Assembly (NCBI RefSeq): GCF_003057965.1
Contig: NZ_CP020921.1
Coordinates: 374,501-438,500, forward strand
Source of the DNA: Thermodesulfobium acidiphilum
GTDB taxonomy: Bacteria; Thermodesulfobiota; Thermodesulfobiia; Thermodesulfobiales; Thermodesulfobiaceae
Length of the DNA stretch: 64,000 nucleotides
Direction: 5' to 3'
Made by a program: the position numbers and the translations under genes. Shown here piece by piece: positions 53,983 through 62,480 of this stretch. The notes under the pieces were generated by a model that was not told the origin of the DNA, searched no databases, and saw nothing but the letters and a program-made list of their open reading frames with translations. Positions within the stretch are counted from its first letter, which is position 1. Every line of letters starts with the position of its first letter.

Positions 53983-54345
53983 TTAATAATTTAATACTGA
54001 GTTAGCCTCTAATATCTCTTTGATGGCTTTTCCGGCTTTTGTGAGCTCACAGCCATCAACTATCATTTCCTTTGTGATGCCTCTTTCTTCACAACAAGGA
54101 ATGCATAGGAATATCTTTCCACCATTTGAAAGAAAATTCTCTACATGTTTTTTTATCGGATCATGTCCAGGTGCCTTTATGTGTTCGTAAACTCCCTTTG
54201 TTACTGTGTATACACCGTTTGCCTGCAAACAAACTATAACCTCAGCATCCATTGCAAGGGCTGCATTAGCCATTACGTATGCAAGGGTTGCCTTTTCAGG
54301 GTCTTCTGGTCCGATTGTCGACATAACTACAACTTTTTCGCTCAA
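53983..54345 (-). CDS. DsrE-family sulfur-transfer protein, copy 1
   Basis: 120 residues of the DsrE/DsrF fold. It has the family opening VVVMSTIGPEDPEKATLAYVMANAA and a C-I-P-C-C cluster near residue 80 that could carry persulfide. DsrE proteins pass sulfane sulfur between carriers such as TusA and downstream enzymes. It is almost identical in its middle part to copy 2. It is the last gene of the operon, followed by a strong terminator. RBS GGAGG precedes the ATG. Confidence 0.85.
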   Translation of the reverse strand: MSEKVVVMSTIGPEDPEKATLAYVMANAALAMDAEVIVCLQANGVYTVTKGVYEHIKAPGHDPIKKHVENFLSNGGKIFLCIPCCEERGITKEMIVDGCELTKAGKAIKEILEANSVLNY

Positions 54346-54394
54346 ATTAGAATTTCCTCCTTAGAATTTAGTTATAAAAATACACTTTAAAGAT

Positions 54395-54757
54395 TTAATA
54401 GTTTAATGTGGTTTTGGCTTCCAGTATAGCTTTCATAGCCTTGCCAGACTTGGCCATTTCGCAGCCTTCCAGTATTTGGTCTTGAGAAATATCTCTTTCC
54501 TGACAACAGGGGATACAAACATAAAATTTTCCACCATTTGAAAGAAAATTCTCTACATGTTTTTTTATCGGATCATGTCCAGGTGCCTTTATGTGTTCGT
54601 AAACTCCCTTTGTTACTGTGTAAACGCCATTTGATTGGAGAACCATCAATACCTCAGCATCCATTGCAAGGGCTGCATTAGCCATTACGTATGCAAGGGC
54701 TGCCTTTTCTGGGTTTTCTGGCCCAGAAGATAAGGTAATTACAAGCTTTTCACTCAT
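54395..54757 (-). CDS. DsrE-family sulfur-transfer protein, copy 2
   Basis: 120 residues, same length and layout as copy 1, with C-I-P-C-C at the same place. Two DNA blocks are identical to copy 1: 54528-54622 equals 54116-54210 (95 bp) and 54651-54699 equals 54239-54287 (49 bp), at a constant offset of 412 bases. The flanks differ clearly, which suggests gene conversion or constraint on the shared core. The two probably form a heteromer. RBS GGAGG precedes the ATG. Confidence 0.85.
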   Translation of the reverse strand: MSEKLVITLSSGPENPEKAALAYVMANAALAMDAEVLMVLQSNGVYTVTKGVYEHIKAPGHDPIKKHVENFLSNGGKFYVCIPCCQERDISQDQILEGCEMAKSGKAMKAILEAKTTLNY

Positions 54758-54790
54758 TTTTTTCCTCCGATTAAGTTTTTAGATTGATAA

Positions 54791-55153
54791 TTAATAAAAC
54801 ATTACTAAGTCTGATTCGGCCATGTCTAACATTGCTCTTCCGGCTCCAACTATTTGAGCATTTCTAACAAGATCTTTCTCAGTTATGTTTCTGGCTTTAC
54901 TTGCGCAAACGCATAAATAGAATTTACCGCCCTGTTCTATAAAGTTCTTTACGTAAATTTCCAGAGGATCATAATCTTTATACGTAATTCTCTCAAACAT
55001 TCCGTTAACTGCTGTAAAAACTCCTCCGCTTTGAAGCCACATAGTAACTTCATAGTCCATTGCAAAAGCAGCGTTTGCCATAATAAAGGCACCTATAACT
55101 TTTTCAGGGTTATCAGGACCTGATGTGAGTGCAATAAAAGCCTTCTTTGCCAT
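54791..55153 (-). CDS. DsrE-family sulfur-transfer protein, copy 3
   Basis: 120 residues of the same fold as copies 1 and 2 but more distant (ALTSGPDNPEKVIGAFIMANAAFAMDYE). The cysteine cluster here is C-V-C-A in place of C-I-P-C-C, and the later Cys (EGCE in copy 2) is replaced by Ala, so sulfur chemistry may differ or be lost. Three DsrE-like subunits in a row recall the DsrEFH heterohexamer, in which only one subunit carries the essential Cys. It follows hdrB by 19 bases. Confidence 0.83.
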   Translation of the reverse strand: MAKKAFIALTSGPDNPEKVIGAFIMANAAFAMDYEVTMWLQSGGVFTAVNGMFERITYKDYDPLEIYVKNFIEQGGKFYLCVCASKARNITEKDLVRNAQIVGAGRAMLDMAESDLVMFY

Positions 55154-55172
55154 TCTCTCCTCCTAACACTAT

Positions 55173-56153
55173 TTATGAATTTTGTAAGTATGATTTAACT
55201 AAGATTTCGGAAAGATCCAGGAAACTATCCTTTGAAGGAGAACTTTCTTTTAAGTTTAATAAGCAAATTGGACACATTGTAGTTACTATGTTTGAACAGG
55301 ATAATAAATCGTTTGCTCTTTTTGAGGCAATTTCTTTTGCTTTTTTTGGGAAGAGTGACTCAATTGGACCACCGCAACAGTGAGTAAGCTTTCTTGAAAG
55401 TTCTGGTTCTACATAATTTATTCCGGCATTTTTTAAAAGAACTCTTGGCTCTTCTATTATCTCTTCATATCTTGCCAGGACACAGGAATCATGAATAGCG
55501 ACTGTCATATCTAGCTTATTTTGAGGTTTGATTTTATTTTCATATAATACTTCAATATAATTTTTTACTTCGTAATTAAATTCTGGCAAAATCTTTTTAT
55601 AAACCCTTCTAAGCATGTGTGTAGTGTGTGGATCGACTGTAATAATATTTTTAACGTTATTGTCTTTAAGAATTTTGTTTAATGTCTTTGCTTGATTTAT
55701 TAGCGGTTCGTCTATACCGTTGTCGTACAAAAGAGTACCAACATAAAGTTCATCCTCATATAAGTATCCTGCCTCTACACCGGCGTACTTTAAAAGCTTA
55801 TAGATATTTTGCAGACATCTTTCTGACCTTTCTACCTCATTTCTCTCAGGTTTTGCAGCGTATTTGGACATTGAAGAAAGGTTGACAAACTTATTAACGA
55901 TTCTGCCTACTGGAGCTAGTTTCATAAGAGGGGAATCTTCGAGATTTTCGTAAAGAGTGGTTGCTGATTTTGTGATGGGCATAAGCTGGTACATGTGTCC
56001 CGTATAAATTATTGTTTCTGTACCTCTTTTTATGTCTAAATCTTTTGCCCATGATGTAAGGCTTTTTTCTGAAACGCTAAATACTGTTTTTCTCTTTTCA
56101 AAATTATCGTTTAATATTCCTAAAACCGCTCCCACTTTGCTCATTTTTTTCAC
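55173..56153 (-). CDS. hdrB: HdrB-like CCG-domain subunit
   Basis: 326 residues. The C-terminal half contains one complete CCG (cysteine-rich) motif: HDSCVLARYEE, then LTHCCGGPIESLFP and CPICLLNL. Normal HdrB/HdrD proteins have two CCG motifs that bind noncubane clusters; the N-terminal half here has only scattered Cys (ERSERCLQNIY), so one cluster site is missing. In HdrABC the CCG subunit reduces a disulfide or similar substrate. It overlaps hdrC by four bases, as expected for an HdrB-HdrC pair. Confidence 0.82.
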   Translation of the reverse strand: MKKMSKVGAVLGILNDNFEKRKTVFSVSEKSLTSWAKDLDIKRGTETIIYTGHMYQLMPITKSATTLYENLEDSPLMKLAPVGRIVNKFVNLSSMSKYAAKPERNEVERSERCLQNIYKLLKYAGVEAGYLYEDELYVGTLLYDNGIDEPLINQAKTLNKILKDNNVKNIITVDPHTTHMLRRVYKKILPEFNYEVKNYIEVLYENKIKPQNKLDMTVAIHDSCVLARYEEIIEEPRVLLKNAGINYVEPELSRKLTHCCGGPIESLFPKKAKEIASKRANDLLSCSNIVTTMCPICLLNLKESSPSKDSFLDLSEILVKSYLQNS

Positions 56154-56452
56154 ACTCCAAGCTTGCTTTTGGCAAGATAATTTCTTATAAGCCTTATATT
56201 TTCTGTAATATTAACTTCATGTGGGCATTGCTCTTCACACATTCTACACAAAAGGCATGAAAATACCTGATCGGTGCTCTCAAGAATTTTTTCTTCTTCA
56301 CCTAAGAGAACATATCTAAAGAGTTTTCTGGGTAAAATATCAAATCCTACTGGACACAGTGCTGAGCAAGTCCCACAATTAAAACATGCTGAAGCGTTGA
56401 AATCTTCGCTTATTTTAATCTTATCTATCAATCCAGAATTGACTTTTATCAT
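56150..56452 (-). CDS. hdrC: HdrC-like 2x[4Fe-4S] subunit
   Basis: 100 residues from the ATG at 56452, chosen for the AAGGAG seven bases upstream. Two clusters of the ferredoxin type: CFNCGTCSALCPVGF and CLLCRMCEEQCPHEV. HdrC relays electrons from HdrA to the catalytic HdrB. It starts one base after the end of the winged-helix gene and overlaps hdrB by four bases. Confidence 0.9.
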   Translation of the reverse strand: MIKVNSGLIDKIKISEDFNASACFNCGTCSALCPVGFDILPRKLFRYVLLGEEEKILESTDQVFSCLLCRMCEEQCPHEVNITENIRLIRNYLAKSKLGV

Positions 56453-56453
56453 C

Positions 56454-56696
56454 TTATTTCTCCTTGAGAGCGTATTTATAGTAATCATCTCGTCTCTTTT
56501 TTGGAAGTTCTTCGACAAGATTGTATCTGCGCATTGCCATTAGATGCATAGTAACCTCATAAGTTGGAATATTTAATTCCTTTGAAATTTCTGGTATTGT
56601 CTTTGGTTCACTTTTGAGCAAAGAAGCTATTTTTTCGTGGAAATACATCTCATTTTTTATAACGTGTAAAGGCGGCTTAATAAATTTTTTTATCAT
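56454..56696 (-). CDS. Small winged-helix protein inside the Hdr operon
   Basis: 80 residues, mostly helical, with a winged-helix pattern: KIASLLKSEPKTIPEISKELN, then YEVTMHLMAMRRYNLVEELPKKRRDDYYKYAL. It resembles the reading head of ArsR/MarR-type DNA-binding domains but is too short for ligand sensing. It lies between hdrA and hdrC with a four-base overlap to hdrA, so it is co-expressed with the enzyme complex. It might bind DNA or serve as a protein adaptor; neither is proven. Confidence 0.7.
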   Translation of the reverse strand: MIKKFIKPPLHVIKNEMYFHEKIASLLKSEPKTIPEISKELNIPTYEVTMHLMAMRRYNLVEELPKKRRDDYYKYALKEK

Positions 56697-58417
56697 TCTT
56701 TTGCCTCCAAGAGCATAGAATTTATCATAGAATTTATTTGAACATGAGTGTAACCAAGAACTTCCAGCGCATCTTCAGGGCAATCAGGTACACAGCCGCC
56801 ACATCCTTTGCAAATTGCAGGGTTTATGTTTGCAATTATCTTGTCGTTTTTATTTATAAAGGATATTGCTTCGTAAGGGCATGAATTTTCACATAATTTG
56901 CAACCTGTACACTTTTCTTCTATTACGTGTGCAACAGTGGGTTCAATGTCTACATAGCCTTTTATAAGAAGAGATGCTGTTTTTGATGCTGCAGCCATTG
57001 AACTAGCTACGCTTTCTGAAATATTTTTTGGACCTTGTGACGTTCCTGCAATGAATATGCCGTCTATTACAGTTTCTACAGGCCTTAGTTTTGGATGAAT
57101 TTCGTTATAAAACTTATCTTTACCGATAGGAGTTTTTAAGATATCATTTAGCTCTGTATTTTCATTTGCTACCATACCGTTAACTAATACTAGCAGATCA
57201 CAGGGGATTAAGATATCTTCTTTGGCCAGCAATCTATCTTTTACTATAATTTTTATTCTTTCGCCTTTTAGACTAATATCTGGGGGGTTTTCTTCCTCGT
57301 ATTTGAAGTATAAAGCTCCACGTCTGAGATTTTCTTCGTAATATTCCTCGTATTTTCCGTATGTTCTTATATCTCTATAAATATGATATTGCTTTAAATT
57401 GTTATCGATATCAAATGCTAAAAGAGAAGCATAGTTAACAGCGCTGCAACAATATCTGGAACAGTATTTATTGCCGTTTTCTTTATTACTTTCTCGGGAA
57501 CCTACACAATAAATGTAGGCTATTTCTCTAATTCTTTGACCATTAAAGATTAGTTCACCTTTTTTAGTATTATTTGATAATAACTTCTTAAAATCTACCA
57601 AAGTTATTACATTGGGGTGCCCATAGCCAAACTCATTAGGTTCTGGAATATAGGGCTTGAATCCTGTTGCTAAAATTATTGAACCAACGCTTAAAGTTAG
57701 TTTTTCATTTCCAGACATTATATCGCATTCAAAATTTCCTACGCTGCCTTGTTTTTTCAATAATTTTGCGTTCGTATAAACTTTTATATTGTTTCTTCCC
57801 TTAATTTCTTTTTCAAGTTCTTCTATTAGTTCAGAACTATTTTTATGTTCAGGAAAGACTATACCTATGTCCTTTAAATTGCCACCTATTTTGGATTCTT
57901 TTTCTACTACGTGAGCAAAGATCCCCATATCGGATAATGCTAAAGCGCACCTTAAACCTGATATGCCTCCTCCTATTATTAAAGCCTGATTTACAGTGTT
58001 TACTCTTAATGGAGTGAGTGGAACAGAATTTCTAGTTTTTGCAATGCCAGCTCTTACTAAATCAATTGCTTTAGAAGTGGCTGCTTCTTTGTTGTGAGTA
58101 TGTGCCCATGAACACTGCTCTCTGATATTTACCTGAGTATACTGGTAGGGATTAAGTCCTGCCCTTTGTGCCATATTTTGAAAGGTCTTCAAATGAAGTT
58201 TTGGGGAGCAAGAAGCAATTACAATTCCGTCTAACTTCTTTTCTTTTATTGCATTTATCATTTCTGTTTGAGCGCTGTCAGAACATGTAAACATATTGGT
58301 CTTTGCATATACTACGCCTTCATCGTTTGCAACTGCATCCCTTACTCTTTCTACGTCTACATAGTCAGATATGTTTCCACCGCAATAACATATGAAAACG
58401 CCAATTCTATCGCTCAT
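56693..58417 (-). CDS. hdrA: HdrA-type flavoprotein
   Basis: 574 residues. The N-terminal HdrA domain (about 1-140) has the cysteines of a [4Fe-4S] site in ICYCGGNIS, TCSD and SCSPK. The FAD-binding core begins at LIIGGGISGLRCALAL near residue 150 and includes CVGSRE and YCSRYCC segments. The C-terminus carries two ferredoxin clusters, CTGCKLCENSCPYEA and CKGCGGCVPDCPEDA. HdrA is the site of flavin-based electron bifurcation in methanogens and in some sulfate reducers. It is encoded directly after the longer HdrA hybrid with a four-base overlap. Confidence 0.92.
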   Translation of the reverse strand: MSDRIGVFICYCGGNISDYVDVERVRDAVANDEGVVYAKTNMFTCSDSAQTEMINAIKEKKLDGIVIASCSPKLHLKTFQNMAQRAGLNPYQYTQVNIREQCSWAHTHNKEAATSKAIDLVRAGIAKTRNSVPLTPLRVNTVNQALIIGGGISGLRCALALSDMGIFAHVVEKESKIGGNLKDIGIVFPEHKNSSELIEELEKEIKGRNNIKVYTNAKLLKKQGSVGNFECDIMSGNEKLTLSVGSIILATGFKPYIPEPNEFGYGHPNVITLVDFKKLLSNNTKKGELIFNGQRIREIAYIYCVGSRESNKENGNKYCSRYCCSAVNYASLLAFDIDNNLKQYHIYRDIRTYGKYEEYYEENLRRGALYFKYEEENPPDISLKGERIKIIVKDRLLAKEDILIPCDLLVLVNGMVANENTELNDILKTPIGKDKFYNEIHPKLRPVETVIDGIFIAGTSQGPKNISESVASSMAAASKTASLLIKGYVDIEPTVAHVIEEKCTGCKLCENSCPYEAISFINKNDKIIANINPAICKGCGGCVPDCPEDALEVLGYTHVQINSMINSMLLEAKE

Positions 58418-60999
58418 AGCCCCCTCCTCATCTTTGTAATGTATCCTGCTGCTTGAGCTGCAGCAGCTCCAGCGTGTACAACAGAATCGGGGATATCTTT
58501 TATAGAACTAGAAGTGCCAGCTACAAATATTCCTTCTATTGAGGTTTTTGCTGGCTCTATGTTTTCTTCTACTTCTCTTACGAACATATGATTGTCCGCA
58601 TCCAGTTTTATATCTTTGAAAGACTTAAATATAGATGTGTTCGACAGTAGGCCAACTGATAGTATTACCATATCGTGACTGGCAACCTTTATCTGCCCAT
58701 CTTCTTCTATATCTTCGTAAAATAGATTTAAATTGTTTTCTTCATCTTCTTCAATTCTTGCTACCTTCCCTTTTACGAATCTTATTCCCATTTCTTTGGC
58801 CTGGTGGTAAAACTCTTCATATCCTTTGCCGAATGCCCTTATATCAATGTAATAAATAGTCAAATCGGCGGTAGGTAGGGCTCCCATTATAAGTTGCGCC
58901 TGTTTTAGAGAATACATACAGCAAACTCTTGAACATATATTATTGTTTACCTTTCTGTCTCGTGAACCTACACACAATATCATTGCAATATTTGAGGGTA
59001 CTTTACCGTCAGATGGTCTTATTACAGCATTATATGGCCTGGTTGGTGCGAGTATTCTGTCCATTTGCATTGCGTCGATGACATTTGGAAATCTGCCAAA
59101 GCCGAATATTTCTTTTTTGCTGGCGTTAAACAAATTGAATCCTGTAGAGACAATTACAGTATCCACTTCTATTTCGTATCTTATATCTCTGATAGAAAAA
59201 TCTATTGCATTAGCCGGACAAATGTTTACACATTGGTGACATTCGCTACAACCACCACAATCCAGACAGCCTGTAGCATATTTCTTAACTTCTTCTTCTG
59301 AAATGGTTTGTTCTATTTCTTCAAAATTGAGTTCTTTTGTTTTGAGATGTGGCTCAAATTTTATATGTTTTGGAAAGTCTGAGTTATAACGTTCTTTTAT
59401 TTCATTAGGTTTTACGGCAGGAAGTCTGTTGTCAAATTTTTCTGAACTAAAATCTAAATTGTTTAAAAATAGATCAAGATAAAAAGCTGCCTTTTTTGCA
59501 CTGGAAATAGCCTTAAGAATATTTGAATGTCCGTGTACACTGTCACCACAACTAAATGCCCACGGAATTTGGGTCTGATAAAATTCGTTAACTTTTAGTT
59601 CGGATATATTCGAATCAGACTCGTCAAAAATTATTTGCTCAGGTTTTGGGTCCATTGCATAAACAATAATATCTGCTTTATCTATCTCATCTAATTTGGA
59701 ATTAAGAATCAATCTGGCTCCCTCGTTTGTAGCATCGTCGATCTCTTTTTTTGTAGCACTCATACTTACCCTGTCCTTTTCAAAGTGTATTGAAACGTTT
59801 GCTTTATACCTTAGTGCCACTCTGGCACAGTGCATAGCAATGTTATTTCCACCTATTACAACAACGTTTTTAGAATTTAGGGTGGGGGGGATATCTTTGT
59901 TCTGCAAGAATTTAATTGCGTCTATGACATTTTTTTGTTTTAAGAATTCTGGTAAATCCTTTTCATTATAGCTGGTTCCAGTTGACAACAATACTGCGTC
60001 AAATCCATTTTCTTTTAAAGATTTTAAAGAAGAGATTTTGGTGTTAAGCTTTACTTCAATATTATTGAACGATGTTATTTCTTCAATATCTCTATCTAAT
60101 AAATTCTTTGGAAGCAAATAATCTGGAATTAATCTAAGTTTGCCTCCCAGTTTGTCTGATGATTCGAAAATAGTTACTCTGTAACCCTTTTTAGCTAGAT
60201 AATATGCTGCGCTGAGTCCAGATGGACCAGAGCCTATAATTGCAATTTTCTTATCTAATAGATTTTTTGGTTCTATTTTTTGTGGTATAGGGAAATTTTT
60301 AAAGTGTTTGTCAGCTATATATCTCTTTATGTTTCTAATAGGGATAGAACCTTCTAATTGGTTTCTGGTGCACCTTTTTTCGCAGGGAGCGGAGCATATT
60401 CTACTAAGAGTTGAAACTAGAGGTGAGTCTTCAAGATGTAAACGATATGCCTCTTCAAATTTTCCAGATCTTGAGAGTGAAACCAGTCCGTGAGCTTTTA
60501 TGCCAATAGGGCACACAAAGGTACAGGGGGATGTACCAAATCTCTCTATTACGGCTTTTTTAGGAACGGCTTGTGGAAATGCAATATATGCCGCTCTTCT
60601 GGGAACCAGGTCACAATTGAACTGGTCAAGCAAGGGAACAGTGCAAGCAAGCTCACACTGTCCGCATCCAGTGCATTTAGCAGGATCTACAAAAGACGCT
60701 TTTTTAAGAATTTTAGCAGTAAACGAATCCTCTTTTTTCTTTATTTCCTCTACCTCACTATAATTTAACACGGTAATATTATTGTGAGCTGCTGTTGCAG
60801 CCATTTTAGGTGTAGATATACAGCTCGAACAATCAAGAGTGGGAAATACTTTACTAAGTAGTATCATTTTTCCGCCAATACTGGACTCTTTTTCTACAAG
60901 AAGCACTTTGAACCCCATATCACCAAGCAATATGGAAGATTCCATCCCAGCAATTCCGCCACCTATTACTAATGCATCAAATTTTTTAAAGTCGCTCAT
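58414..60999 (-). CDS. hdrA: HdrA fused with an inserted NfnB/GltD-type flavoprotein module
   Basis: 861 residues. Residues 1-130 begin an HdrA: FAD motif LVIGGGIAGMESSILL, LDCSSCIS and a cluster CTGCGQCELAC. Residues about 165-500 are an inserted GltD/NfnB module: CTFVCPIGIKAHGLV, ICSAPCEKRCTR, second FAD motif AIIGSGPSGLSAAYYL and a degenerate dinucleotide site VVIGGNNIAMHCAR. Then come CLDCGGCSECHQCVNICPANA and the rest of the HdrA core to FVAGTSSS. The insertion gives the protein two FADs and a possible NAD(P)H site, so it could couple NAD(P)H, ferredoxin and the Hdr reaction. Function is inferred. Confidence 0.9.
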   Translation of the reverse strand: MSDFKKFDALVIGGGIAGMESSILLGDMGFKVLLVEKESSIGGKMILLSKVFPTLDCSSCISTPKMAATAAHNNITVLNYSEVEEIKKKEDSFTAKILKKASFVDPAKCTGCGQCELACTVPLLDQFNCDLVPRRAAYIAFPQAVPKKAVIERFGTSPCTFVCPIGIKAHGLVSLSRSGKFEEAYRLHLEDSPLVSTLSRICSAPCEKRCTRNQLEGSIPIRNIKRYIADKHFKNFPIPQKIEPKNLLDKKIAIIGSGPSGLSAAYYLAKKGYRVTIFESSDKLGGKLRLIPDYLLPKNLLDRDIEEITSFNNIEVKLNTKISSLKSLKENGFDAVLLSTGTSYNEKDLPEFLKQKNVIDAIKFLQNKDIPPTLNSKNVVVIGGNNIAMHCARVALRYKANVSIHFEKDRVSMSATKKEIDDATNEGARLILNSKLDEIDKADIIVYAMDPKPEQIIFDESDSNISELKVNEFYQTQIPWAFSCGDSVHGHSNILKAISSAKKAAFYLDLFLNNLDFSSEKFDNRLPAVKPNEIKERYNSDFPKHIKFEPHLKTKELNFEEIEQTISEEEVKKYATGCLDCGGCSECHQCVNICPANAIDFSIRDIRYEIEVDTVIVSTGFNLFNASKKEIFGFGRFPNVIDAMQMDRILAPTRPYNAVIRPSDGKVPSNIAMILCVGSRDRKVNNNICSRVCCMYSLKQAQLIMGALPTADLTIYYIDIRAFGKGYEEFYHQAKEMGIRFVKGKVARIEEDEENNLNLFYEDIEEDGQIKVASHDMVILSVGLLSNTSIFKSFKDIKLDADNHMFVREVEENIEPAKTSIEGIFVAGTSSSIKDIPDSVVHAGAAAAQAAGYITKMRRGL

Positions 61000-61014
61000 G
61001 CCTACTCCTTATAG

Positions 61015-61410
61015 TTAATTATTTAACTCACTTAATGCTTTATGAAACTTTTTAATATGTGATACAAATGACTCTGCACAAACTGAACATATTGCTGCCA
61101 TTTTTACTCTTCTCGGATCCAGATTGTTTGCTGTAAGGAGTTCTTGTGATTTTTCTACGACTTTTGCAGTTCTATCTGTGCAGTCAGTTAAATAAGGACA
61201 GTCTGTTCCATCGGCAGCTATAAATACTCCATCAAAGCCATTTTTTATAGCATTTAAAATCCACTTTGGGCTTATACCACTAGAGCAAGGTACTGTTATA
61301 ACTTTAACCGATTCTGGATAGTCCATATGAGATGCCCCTGCAAGGTCAATACCCGGATCTGAGATGTTATTTGTTGAAAAAACCAATATTTTTGGATTAT
61401 TGGTAGACAT
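61015..61410 (-). CDS. mvhD: MvhD-type iron-sulfur subunit
   Basis: 131 residues of the MvhD/FrhD-like family, which binds a [2Fe-2S] cluster and links HdrA to its electron donor. Conserved segments: ISDPGIDLAGASHMDYPESVKVITVPCSSGI, GFDGVFIAADGTDCPYLTDC and RVKMAAICSVCAESFV. It lies immediately after the TusA gene and 15 bases before the HdrA hybrid, as expected for a subunit of the same complex. No hydrogenase genes are visible here, so electrons probably come from NAD(P)H, formate or another donor. Confidence 0.88.
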   Translation of the reverse strand: MSTNNPKILVFSTNNISDPGIDLAGASHMDYPESVKVITVPCSSGISPKWILNAIKNGFDGVFIAADGTDCPYLTDCTDRTAKVVEKSQELLTANNLDPRRVKMAAICSVCAESFVSHIKKFHKALSELNN

Positions 61411-61411
61411 T

Positions 61412-61663
61412 TTATTTTCCTCTTTTTACATAAAGTTTCCAATATCCAGCTTCTTCAACAGTTCCTAAAAATTCGTGTCCAACTTTTTCTGCCCATAATG
61501 GGAGGTCTTCGTTTGTTCCTTCGTCAGAGGATAGAACTTCCATTATCCCGCCAATAGGTATCGAGACGATTTCTCTTTTGGCTGCGAGCAATGGGCCAGG
61601 ACAGGCACTCCCTCTTGCATCTACTGTTTTGTCTACTTTCAAATTTTTCAAGTCTAAGCTCAT
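61412..61663 (-). CDS. tusA: TusA-family sulfur carrier
   Basis: 83 residues. The catalytic motif is VDARGSACPGPLLAAKREI with the sulfur-carrying Cys, followed by the GGIMEVLSSDEGTNEDLPLWAEKVGHEF core of TusA/SirA. TusA accepts persulfide sulfur and hands it on, often to DsrE-type proteins, three of which lie at the other end of this operon. RBS AGGAGG precedes the ATG. It follows the arsR-like gene by 16 bases. Confidence 0.92.
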   Translation of the reverse strand: MSLDLKNLKVDKTVDARGSACPGPLLAAKREIVSIPIGGIMEVLSSDEGTNEDLPLWAEKVGHEFLGTVEEAGYWKLYVKRGK

Positions 61664-61679
61664 GACATCCTCCTAATAT

Positions 61680-62048
61680 TTATTTTTTTATTTTAAAGCA
61701 AAGAAAATTGCTTTCCAAACTCATTTCTTTTGCAAAATTGCCCTTTTTTTTCATTGTTTCATAAAGAATTTGTCTTATAAGATTACAGGCTTCACCTAAC
61801 CTTTTGTCTGAGAGTGAGTAGTAAATTGTTTTGCCCTCTTTTCTGGCTTCTACTAAATTGTGTGATCTAAGAATAGCTAGATGCTGGCTAACAGTTGATG
61901 GTCTTGCGCCTATTGTTTTAGCAATTTCTGTTACGTTTGCCTCCCCTTCAGCAAGCATTGCTATTATCATAAGCCTTTTCGAACTGGAAAGGCTTTTGCA
62001 AAGCTCTGCATGGGCATCAAAGAGTTGCAGCAAATTAATTATAATCAC
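61680..62048 (-). CDS. ArsR-family transcriptional regulator
   Basis: 122 residues with the ArsR winged helix: CKSLSSSKRLMIIAMLAEGEANVTEIAKTI, then RPSTVSQHLAILRSHNLVEARKEGKTIYYSL. It has only two Cys, in CNLIRQ and LCFKI, so a metal site of the classic CVC kind is absent; a persulfide- or sulfide-sensing pair of Cys as in SqrR/BigR is possible but unproven. It is the first gene of the sulfur operon and probably binds the TTCGAA repeats at 62066-62079. The start is GTG 62048; a TTG at 62033 is an alternative. Confidence 0.87.
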   Translation of the reverse strand: MIIINLLQLFDAHAELCKSLSSSKRLMIIAMLAEGEANVTEIAKTIGARPSTVSQHLAILRSHNLVEARKEGKTIYYSLSDKRLGEACNLIRQILYETMKKKGNFAKEMSLESNFLCFKIKK

Positions 62049-62065
62049 CTCTTTTTATACATATA

Positions 62066-62112
62066 TTCGAAAATTCGAAAATAAGTATATATAATTTTTT
62101 CAATTCTGTCAA
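62066..62112 (-). promoter_or_regulatory. Promoter and ArsR-type operator of the sulfur operon
   Basis: On the minus strand a perfect -35 TTGACA (62107-62112) and a -10 TATACT (62084-62089) are 17 bases apart. Two TTCGAA palindromes at 62066-62071 and 62074-62079 lie over the start point and the early leader, ideally placed for autorepression by the ArsR protein encoded directly downstream. Confidence 0.8.
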
Positions 62113-62403: not shown

Positions 62404-62480
62404 TGGCGTGCCCGACAGGATTCGAACCTGTGACCTTTGGATTCGTAGTCCAACGCTCTATCCAACTGAGCTACGGGCAC
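62404..62480 (-). tRNA. tRNA-Arg (anticodon ACG)
   Basis: On the minus strand the acceptor arm GTGCCCG pairs with CGGGCAC, the D arm is AGCTCAGTTGGATAGAGC, and the anticodon arm TTGGA-CTACGAA-TCCAA gives anticodon ACG. The T arm holds GGTTCGAATCC, and G-CCA is encoded at the 3' end (62404-62407). The molecule is complete, 77 bases with CCA. ACG would normally have its first base edited to inosine by TadA. Confidence 0.97.

Follow-up and report, generated by a model that had tools for sequence, protein, structure and literature searches.

The closest described relatives of the locus reported here are the QmoABC and QmoAB-HdrBC complexes, HdrL, the sHdr system and the YTD clusters. Hdr genes clustered with TusA have also been mentioned in passing in work on Cloacimonadota metagenome-assembled genomes (MAGs), where they were taken as a sign of sulfur oxidation (PMC8542988). 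Thermotoga has an NAD(P)H-dependent polysulfide/thiosulfate reductase and a thiosulfate-induced yeeE/dsrE/tusA unit (PMC9431562), so NAD(P)H-linked chemistry of this kind exists in the cytoplasm of an anaerobe. We analyzed an eleven-gene operon of Thermodesulfobium acidiphilum with which QmoABC, QmoAB-HdrBC, HdrL, sHdr and YTD each have some parts in common. It lies on the minus strand at positions 53,983-62,112 of a 64,000-nucleotide stretch of contig NZ_CP020921.1 (positions 374,501 to 438,500; hereafter the window) and reads arsR-tusA-mvhD-hdrA1-hdrA2-winged helix-hdrC-hdrB, followed by three dsrE genes. An earlier note on this DNA had regarded Qmo and sHdr as relatives with other gene sets, and our gene-set comparison agrees. 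Our search, confined to the main text of open-access papers, turned up no dedicated account of the operon as a system. We propose, with a probability of roughly one half, that the operon encodes a cytoplasmic Qmo/Hdr-type complex, linked to NAD(P)H and served by TusA and DsrE, that likely reduces protein-bound sulfane sulfur.

The gene set recurs far outside the host. The earlier note could not name the combination and suggested looking for the same gene order in other genomes; about 60 homologous loci came to light, spread over at least 14 phyla. Outside the genus, a broad HdrA2 search detected an orthologous operon in 6 of 382 bacterial genomes sampled, and the remaining loci came from a scan of named genomes with an HdrA1 alignment. 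Within the genus all four genomes retain the operon, one of them without the third dsrE. Judging by record titles, the carriers include Chloroflexi, Acidobacteria, Bacillota, Armatimonadetes, Kiritimatiellales, Aminicenantes, Deltaproteobacteria, Actinomycetota, Bacteroidota, Dormibacterota, Verrucomicrobia, Thermodesulfobacteria and Zixibacteria, together with one Thermoplasmata MAG that may be mis-binned. Because most carriers are MAGs, taxon labels and gene absences carry some error. Among 60 loci, TusA is present in 55, HdrA2 in 54, at least one DsrE in 51, a winged-helix domain in 51 (44 separate genes and 7 fusions) and arsR in 19, and MvhD is a separate gene in 58, as it is in the window. 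Five loci lack TusA: L048, L099 and L122 each run off the end of a contig, L100 has no such gene, and on the short contig of L159 tblastn found no tusA. Neither TusA nor DsrE occurs in any of 28 control loci, whose related HdrAs are archaeal or of the HdrL type. With TusA in 55 of about 60 loci and in 0 of 28 controls, the arrangement is far beyond chance.

The HdrA1 phylogeny agrees with this grouping. The TusA-linked HdrA1 proteins form a clade of 56 tips (support 0.99) apart from HdrL, HdrA and QmoA, and the members that bear an inserted GltD/NfnB module form a subclade within it (support 0.97). In two Asgard loci from Thorarchaeota and Lokiarchaeota MAGs (L165 and L157), HdrA1 has this GltD insert as well and branches as sister to the TusA-linked clade; neither locus showed a tusA or dsrE gene. 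Families recurring in the flanks of the loci were mostly antisense open reading frames (ORFs), from which no additional partner gene emerged, and a search of viral contigs with hdrA1 gave no match.

The residues expected of sulfur carriers are invariant. Cys21 of TusA, within the CPxP motif, is found in 60 of 60 aligned sequences, and Cys81 of DsrE, the active-site cysteine, in all 64 aligned DsrE proteins. MvhD differs according to its neighbor. Every one of the 57 copies adjoining tusA has lost the canonical cysteines of FxCxxC and GCHxGDC and has a CxxC at its C-terminus, whereas 25 of 26 copies without a nearby tusA lack this CxxC, the exception being the contig fragment L159. The conserved cysteines of the window MvhD are Cys42, Cys71, Cys77, Cys108 and Cys111, the last two forming the CxxC. 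We infer that the remodelled MvhD is a docking or sulfur-handover point for TusA. Several other loci (L125, L131, L136 and L160) have class V aminotransferase-like genes close to the operon; these may encode cysteine desulfurases and are a possible sulfur source for TusA.

The features of the operon, in window coordinates, are as follows.

62112-62084, minus strand: promoter-like TTGACA-17-TATACT, sigma-70-like, 5' of arsR; a candidate by consensus match
62056-62089, minus strand: 16-nucleotide inverted repeat 5' of arsR; a candidate ArsR operator by repeat match
61680..62048, minus strand: arsR, ArsR/SmtB repressor (HTH_metalloreg, 88.8 bits, above cut-off)
61412..61663, minus strand: tusA, sulfur carrier with CPGP motif and Cys21 (PF01206, 6e-21)
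61015..61410, minus strand: mvhD/FlpD variant with the canonical cysteines lost (profile match and alignment)
58414..60999, minus strand: hdrA1, 861 amino acids, QmoA-like core with a GltD/NfnB insert at about residues 155-578
56693..58417, minus strand: hdrA2, 574 amino acids, QmoB-like without the MvhD domain
56454..56696, minus strand: winged-helix protein, 80 amino acids, no cysteine (winged-helix model)
56150..56452, minus strand: hdrC, two [4Fe-4S] motifs, eight cysteines
55173..56153, minus strand: hdrB, one non-cubane [4Fe-4S] motif
54791..55153, minus strand: dsrE copy c (PF02635, 1.6e-14)
54395..54757, minus strand: dsrE copy b (PF02635, 2.6e-18)
53983..54345, minus strand: dsrE copy a, Cys81 (PF02635, 7.5e-18)

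Intergenic spacing is only -4 to +49 bp, with 4-bp overlaps at several stop/start pairs, which argues for a single transcript. Matches to Pfam and NCBIfam models back TusA, FlpD/MvhD, HdrA, the GltD/NfnB insert, the Fe-S motifs of HdrC, the one CCG domain of HdrB and the three DsrE proteins. All eleven genes that the earlier note had read as one operon stand, with two amendments. The second HdrA, described there as full, resembles QmoB in having no internal ferredoxin insert, and the start of hdrC is most likely the ATG at 56452 rather than the longer ORF start at 56518. Against the BigR profile ArsR reaches 62.8 bits, under the cut-off of 155. Its Cys17 is kept in 16 of 22 relatives and its Cys88 in 20 of 22, a conservation that suggests a thiol-based sensor; in the ArsR proteins of these operons the pair could sense a persulfide or another thiol-reactive compound. 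A tRNA-Arg gene (anticodon ACG; 62404-62480, minus strand) lies directly upstream of the operon.

The two HdrA proteins resemble the Qmo subunits in extent. Without its insert, hdrA1 covers the same span of the HdrA profile as the host's own QmoA and likewise lacks the N- and C-terminal HdrA parts. In hdrA2 the N-terminal, flavin and C-terminal ferredoxin parts are present, and hdrA2 and mvhD together cover the span of the host's own QmoB. By these profile spans, hdrA1 amounts to a QmoA-like flavin/ferredoxin core with an inserted, predicted NAD(P)H module of the NfnB/GltD type, and hdrA2 plus mvhD to a split QmoB. Among relatives, every Fe-S cysteine of both the HdrA1 core and the insert is conserved, and the five NfnB-type ferredoxin-region cysteines and the flavin glycines of the insert are kept in the 56 insert-bearing relatives. 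The NAD(P)-site motif is YRR, an NADP-type motif (by the rule in PMC7596348), in most members and of CLE type in a minority. In Thermodesulfobium the site is aberrant (GGNN, FEKDR) and the insert is about 45 residues shorter than in the others. Four loci (L048, L096, L100 and L101) have an HdrA1 of 434-472 amino acids without the insert. This sister subclade has much the same genes, so the NAD(P)H input appears to be something gained or lost.

In seven Bacteroidota loci HdrA2 carries the winged-helix domain as a C-terminal fusion. The winged-helix protein is therefore probably a structural subunit that belongs to HdrA2, and a role as a second regulator is unlikely. We also considered DsrD. Profile comparison gave this identity a 2.5% probability, and a fold search ranked DsrD 45th, behind ArsR/MarR-type and Z-DNA-binding winged helices.

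The end of the complex is interchangeable. A QmoC-like protein is found in 27 of the 60 loci and HdrC plus HdrB in 21, the two replacing each other. The QmoC-like protein consists of HdrC fused to mostly 4-6 predicted transmembrane segments and has no CCG motif, which rules out reading half the loci as carrying an HdrCB fusion. Three scanned proteins of this type score 188-207 bits against the NCBIfam qmoC model (cut-off 300), compared with 521 for the host's own QmoC; judging from the sequence, the QmoC-like proteins probably carry a quinone site. HdrB has one non-cubane cluster motif in 21 of 21 proteins compared. In the window the cluster residues are C224, C259-C260, C294 and C297, and the N-terminal half has no cluster cysteines. 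The AlphaFold model of HdrB (mean predicted local distance difference test score 86) is closest to EtfD, LutA and HdrB. Because the end module can be swapped for a QmoC-like protein, HdrB is not a universal sulfur site.

The host genome is a single contig of 1,774,794 bp. The earlier note had proposed a check for aprAB-qmo and dsrC elsewhere in the genome, and both aprA-qmoABC and dsrC are present outside the operon. The aprA gene with adjoining qmoA-qmoB-qmoC lies at about 1.55 Mb, and dsrA, dsrB, dsrC, dsrD and a DsrK-like gene lie at 1.32 Mb, unlinked to the operon. Two further TusA-domain genes are present in the genome, and no PF04143 match (the yedE family) was found in it. An extra dsrE (L054:8227-8589, genome position about 1,478,235), 55% identical to the operon copies, lies beside cydAB (cytochrome bd oxidase). 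Most carriers lack the marker genes: dsrA is absent from 44 of 49 further carrier genomes, aprA from 46 of 56 carriers, and the YeeE/YedE transporter (PF04143) from 47 of 56, including the host (9 of 56 have it). Although the host is a sulfate reducer, the system is therefore not part of sulfate reduction in general, and we rejected that role as a general rule. The absences of dsrA and aprA also mean that sulfite oxidation through Apr is not general.

The proposed reductive complex could work as follows. NAD(P)H would enter at the GltD flavin, and the HdrA flavins would divide electrons over two arms, or combine them from both, with ferredoxin on the low-potential side and HdrB or quinone on the high-potential side. 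TusA, loaded by way of DsrE, would hand the complex sulfane sulfur or a thiosulfonate, and the remodelled MvhD, which carries the new CxxC, is the probable place of delivery. Overall the complex would most likely run reductively: protein-bound sulfane sulfur derived from polysulfide, elemental sulfur or thiosulfate would leave as sulfide, and this may serve as an electron sink or aid the ferredoxin/NAD(P)H balance. ArsR would turn the operon on when reactive sulfur is present. Of the earlier note's proposal, the sulfur-linked Hdr/Nfn-type complex is upheld by the conserved gene set, the invariant TusA and DsrE cysteines and the tree. Release of a persulfide or trisulfide at HdrB does not generalise, because 27 loci have a QmoC-like protein without CCG and 44 of 49 carriers lack dsrA.

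Several points weigh against this proposal. Loci with a QmoC-type end module have no HdrB at which the sulfur chemistry could take place. The four loci without a GltD insert mean that NAD(P)H input is not universal, and Thermodesulfobium itself, with its atypical NAD(P) site, is the member for which nucleotide use is least sure. Bifurcation is assumed from the HdrA family and, to our knowledge, QmoAB itself has not been proven to bifurcate. The reductive direction is a judgement, as the relatives sHdr and Qmo can run oxidatively.

The main rival is that the same complex runs oxidatively, with sulfane sulfur delivered by TusA and DsrE being oxidised and electrons passing to NAD(P)+ and to quinone or a disulfide. 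We consider this unlikely. Many carriers are assigned by name to groups best known as anaerobic fermenters, which counts against it, as do the lack of LbpA and of a second HdrCB pair in the operon, the absence of aprA from 46 of 56 carriers, and the similarity of both HdrA proteins to methanogen HdrA (1e-102 for HdrA1 and 9.7e-185 for HdrA2), far closer than to sHdrA 6tjr (8.6e-39 and 2.8e-50, respectively). Nevertheless, the QmoC-like end module could hand electrons to quinone, the authors of the Cloacimonadota work took their TusA/Hdr cluster as sulfur oxidation (PMC8542988), and sHdr is an Hdr-like oxidation system linked to TusA and DsrE (PMC4175335, PMC6067878). Somewhat less probable again is a conventional bifurcating complex acting on NAD(P)H, ferredoxin and quinone (or a disulfide), for which TusA and DsrE only sense or supply cofactor sulfur. 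TusA has other trafficking roles, the host has two more TusA-domain genes, and HdrL, the nearest architectural relative, is proposed to be NADH-driven without sulfur carriers (PMC2702500); however, this explanation sits poorly with a TusA that accompanies the complex at 55 of 60 loci but is missing from all 28 controls, and with an MvhD cysteine set that shifts with tusA adjacency.

The two remaining alternatives are both very improbable. In one, the operon reduces the DsrC trisulfide as a soluble alternative to DsrMK. The host has dsrA, dsrB, dsrC, dsrD and a DsrK-like gene, and the single non-cubane cluster of HdrB recalls DsrK, but the operon is unlinked to that locus, a QmoC-like protein stands in for HdrB in 27 loci and 44 of 49 other carrier genomes lack dsrA. 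In the other, marginally the less credible, the operon is the type II Qmo already noted in the literature, a partner of AprAB. Its domain spans do equal those of QmoA and QmoB, but the host has its own aprA-qmoABC locus and most carriers lack aprA.

We further propose, tentatively and at somewhat less than even odds, that these loci form a separate and widespread class of bifurcating or confurcating sulfane-sulfur oxidoreductases, with a Qmo-like core of HdrA1-GltD, HdrA2 and MvhD that would be fed by TusA through the CxxC-bearing MvhD and drained by a soluble (HdrC plus HdrB) or quinone-linked (QmoC-like) outlet. With such a class, anaerobes of many phyla could put sulfane sulfur to dissimilatory or redox-balancing use while having neither dsr nor apr. 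If so, anaerobes of at least 14 phyla would own a dedicated machine linking protein-bound sulfur to the NAD(P)H, ferredoxin and quinone pools, including lineages of Actinomycetota, Chloroflexota, Bacteroidota and Verrucomicrobiota not viewed as sulfur bacteria. In annotation the genes are readily taken for heterodisulfide reductase or QmoC, and this can lead to false predictions of sulfate reduction or methanogen-like metabolism in MAGs. Through this system one could also test directly whether sulfane sulfur can be used by HdrA-type flavins, and which role QmoAB-like pairs have without AprAB.

The operon fits neither sHdr, YTD/DsrEFH type II, HdrL nor type I Qmo. It shares with QmoABC and QmoAB-HdrBC a QmoA-like and a QmoB-like subunit of equal domain spans and an end module that can be either a QmoC-type membrane subunit or soluble HdrBC (PMC10504309). 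Qmo has QmoB and the MvhD domain in one chain, whereas here MvhD is split off, the NAD(P)H module sits inside the QmoA part and a winged-helix subunit is added. TusA and DsrE take the place of the AprAB partner, the host aprA lying elsewhere and most carriers having none. Type II Qmo (Vulcanisaeta/Ammonifex, PMC10504309) enters this comparison by its description rather than by sequence.

With HdrL of Desulfobacterium autotrophicum, a fusion of HdrA and glutamate synthase (PMC2702500), the operon shares a GltD/NADH module at the same position in HdrA and an mvhD nearby. HdrL-type proteins are full-length HdrAs of about 1,100 amino acids, in contrast to the truncated 861-residue hdrA1; they form a separate clade (support 1.00), and their loci have no TusA or DsrE. 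FlxABCD-HdrABC and MvhADG-HdrABC likewise have the HdrA flavin/Fe-S core, MvhD and HdrBC, but the operon has no hydrogenase or Flx partner, its MvhD has lost the canonical cysteines and its HdrA is split in two.

Among the systems with sulfur carriers, sHdr also combines Hdr-like subunits with TusA and DsrE genes. The operon, to which our search for lbpA was limited, has neither this gene nor the double HdrCB set (C1B1A-hyp-C2B2), and we rejected a place in sHdr on this gene set and on a core far closer to HdrA than to sHdrA. The YTD or DsrEFH type II clusters (PMC13293266, PMC12998232) share tusA and dsrE-family genes in anaerobic sulfur bacteria but, as described, have no Hdr or Qmo genes; since the host lacks yedE, we rejected this assignment too. 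Finally, the Thermotoga NSR (PMC9431562) is a single flavoprotein without Hdr or Qmo parts, and its likeness to the operon lies in a possible shared function, the NAD(P)H-dependent reduction of sulfane sulfur.

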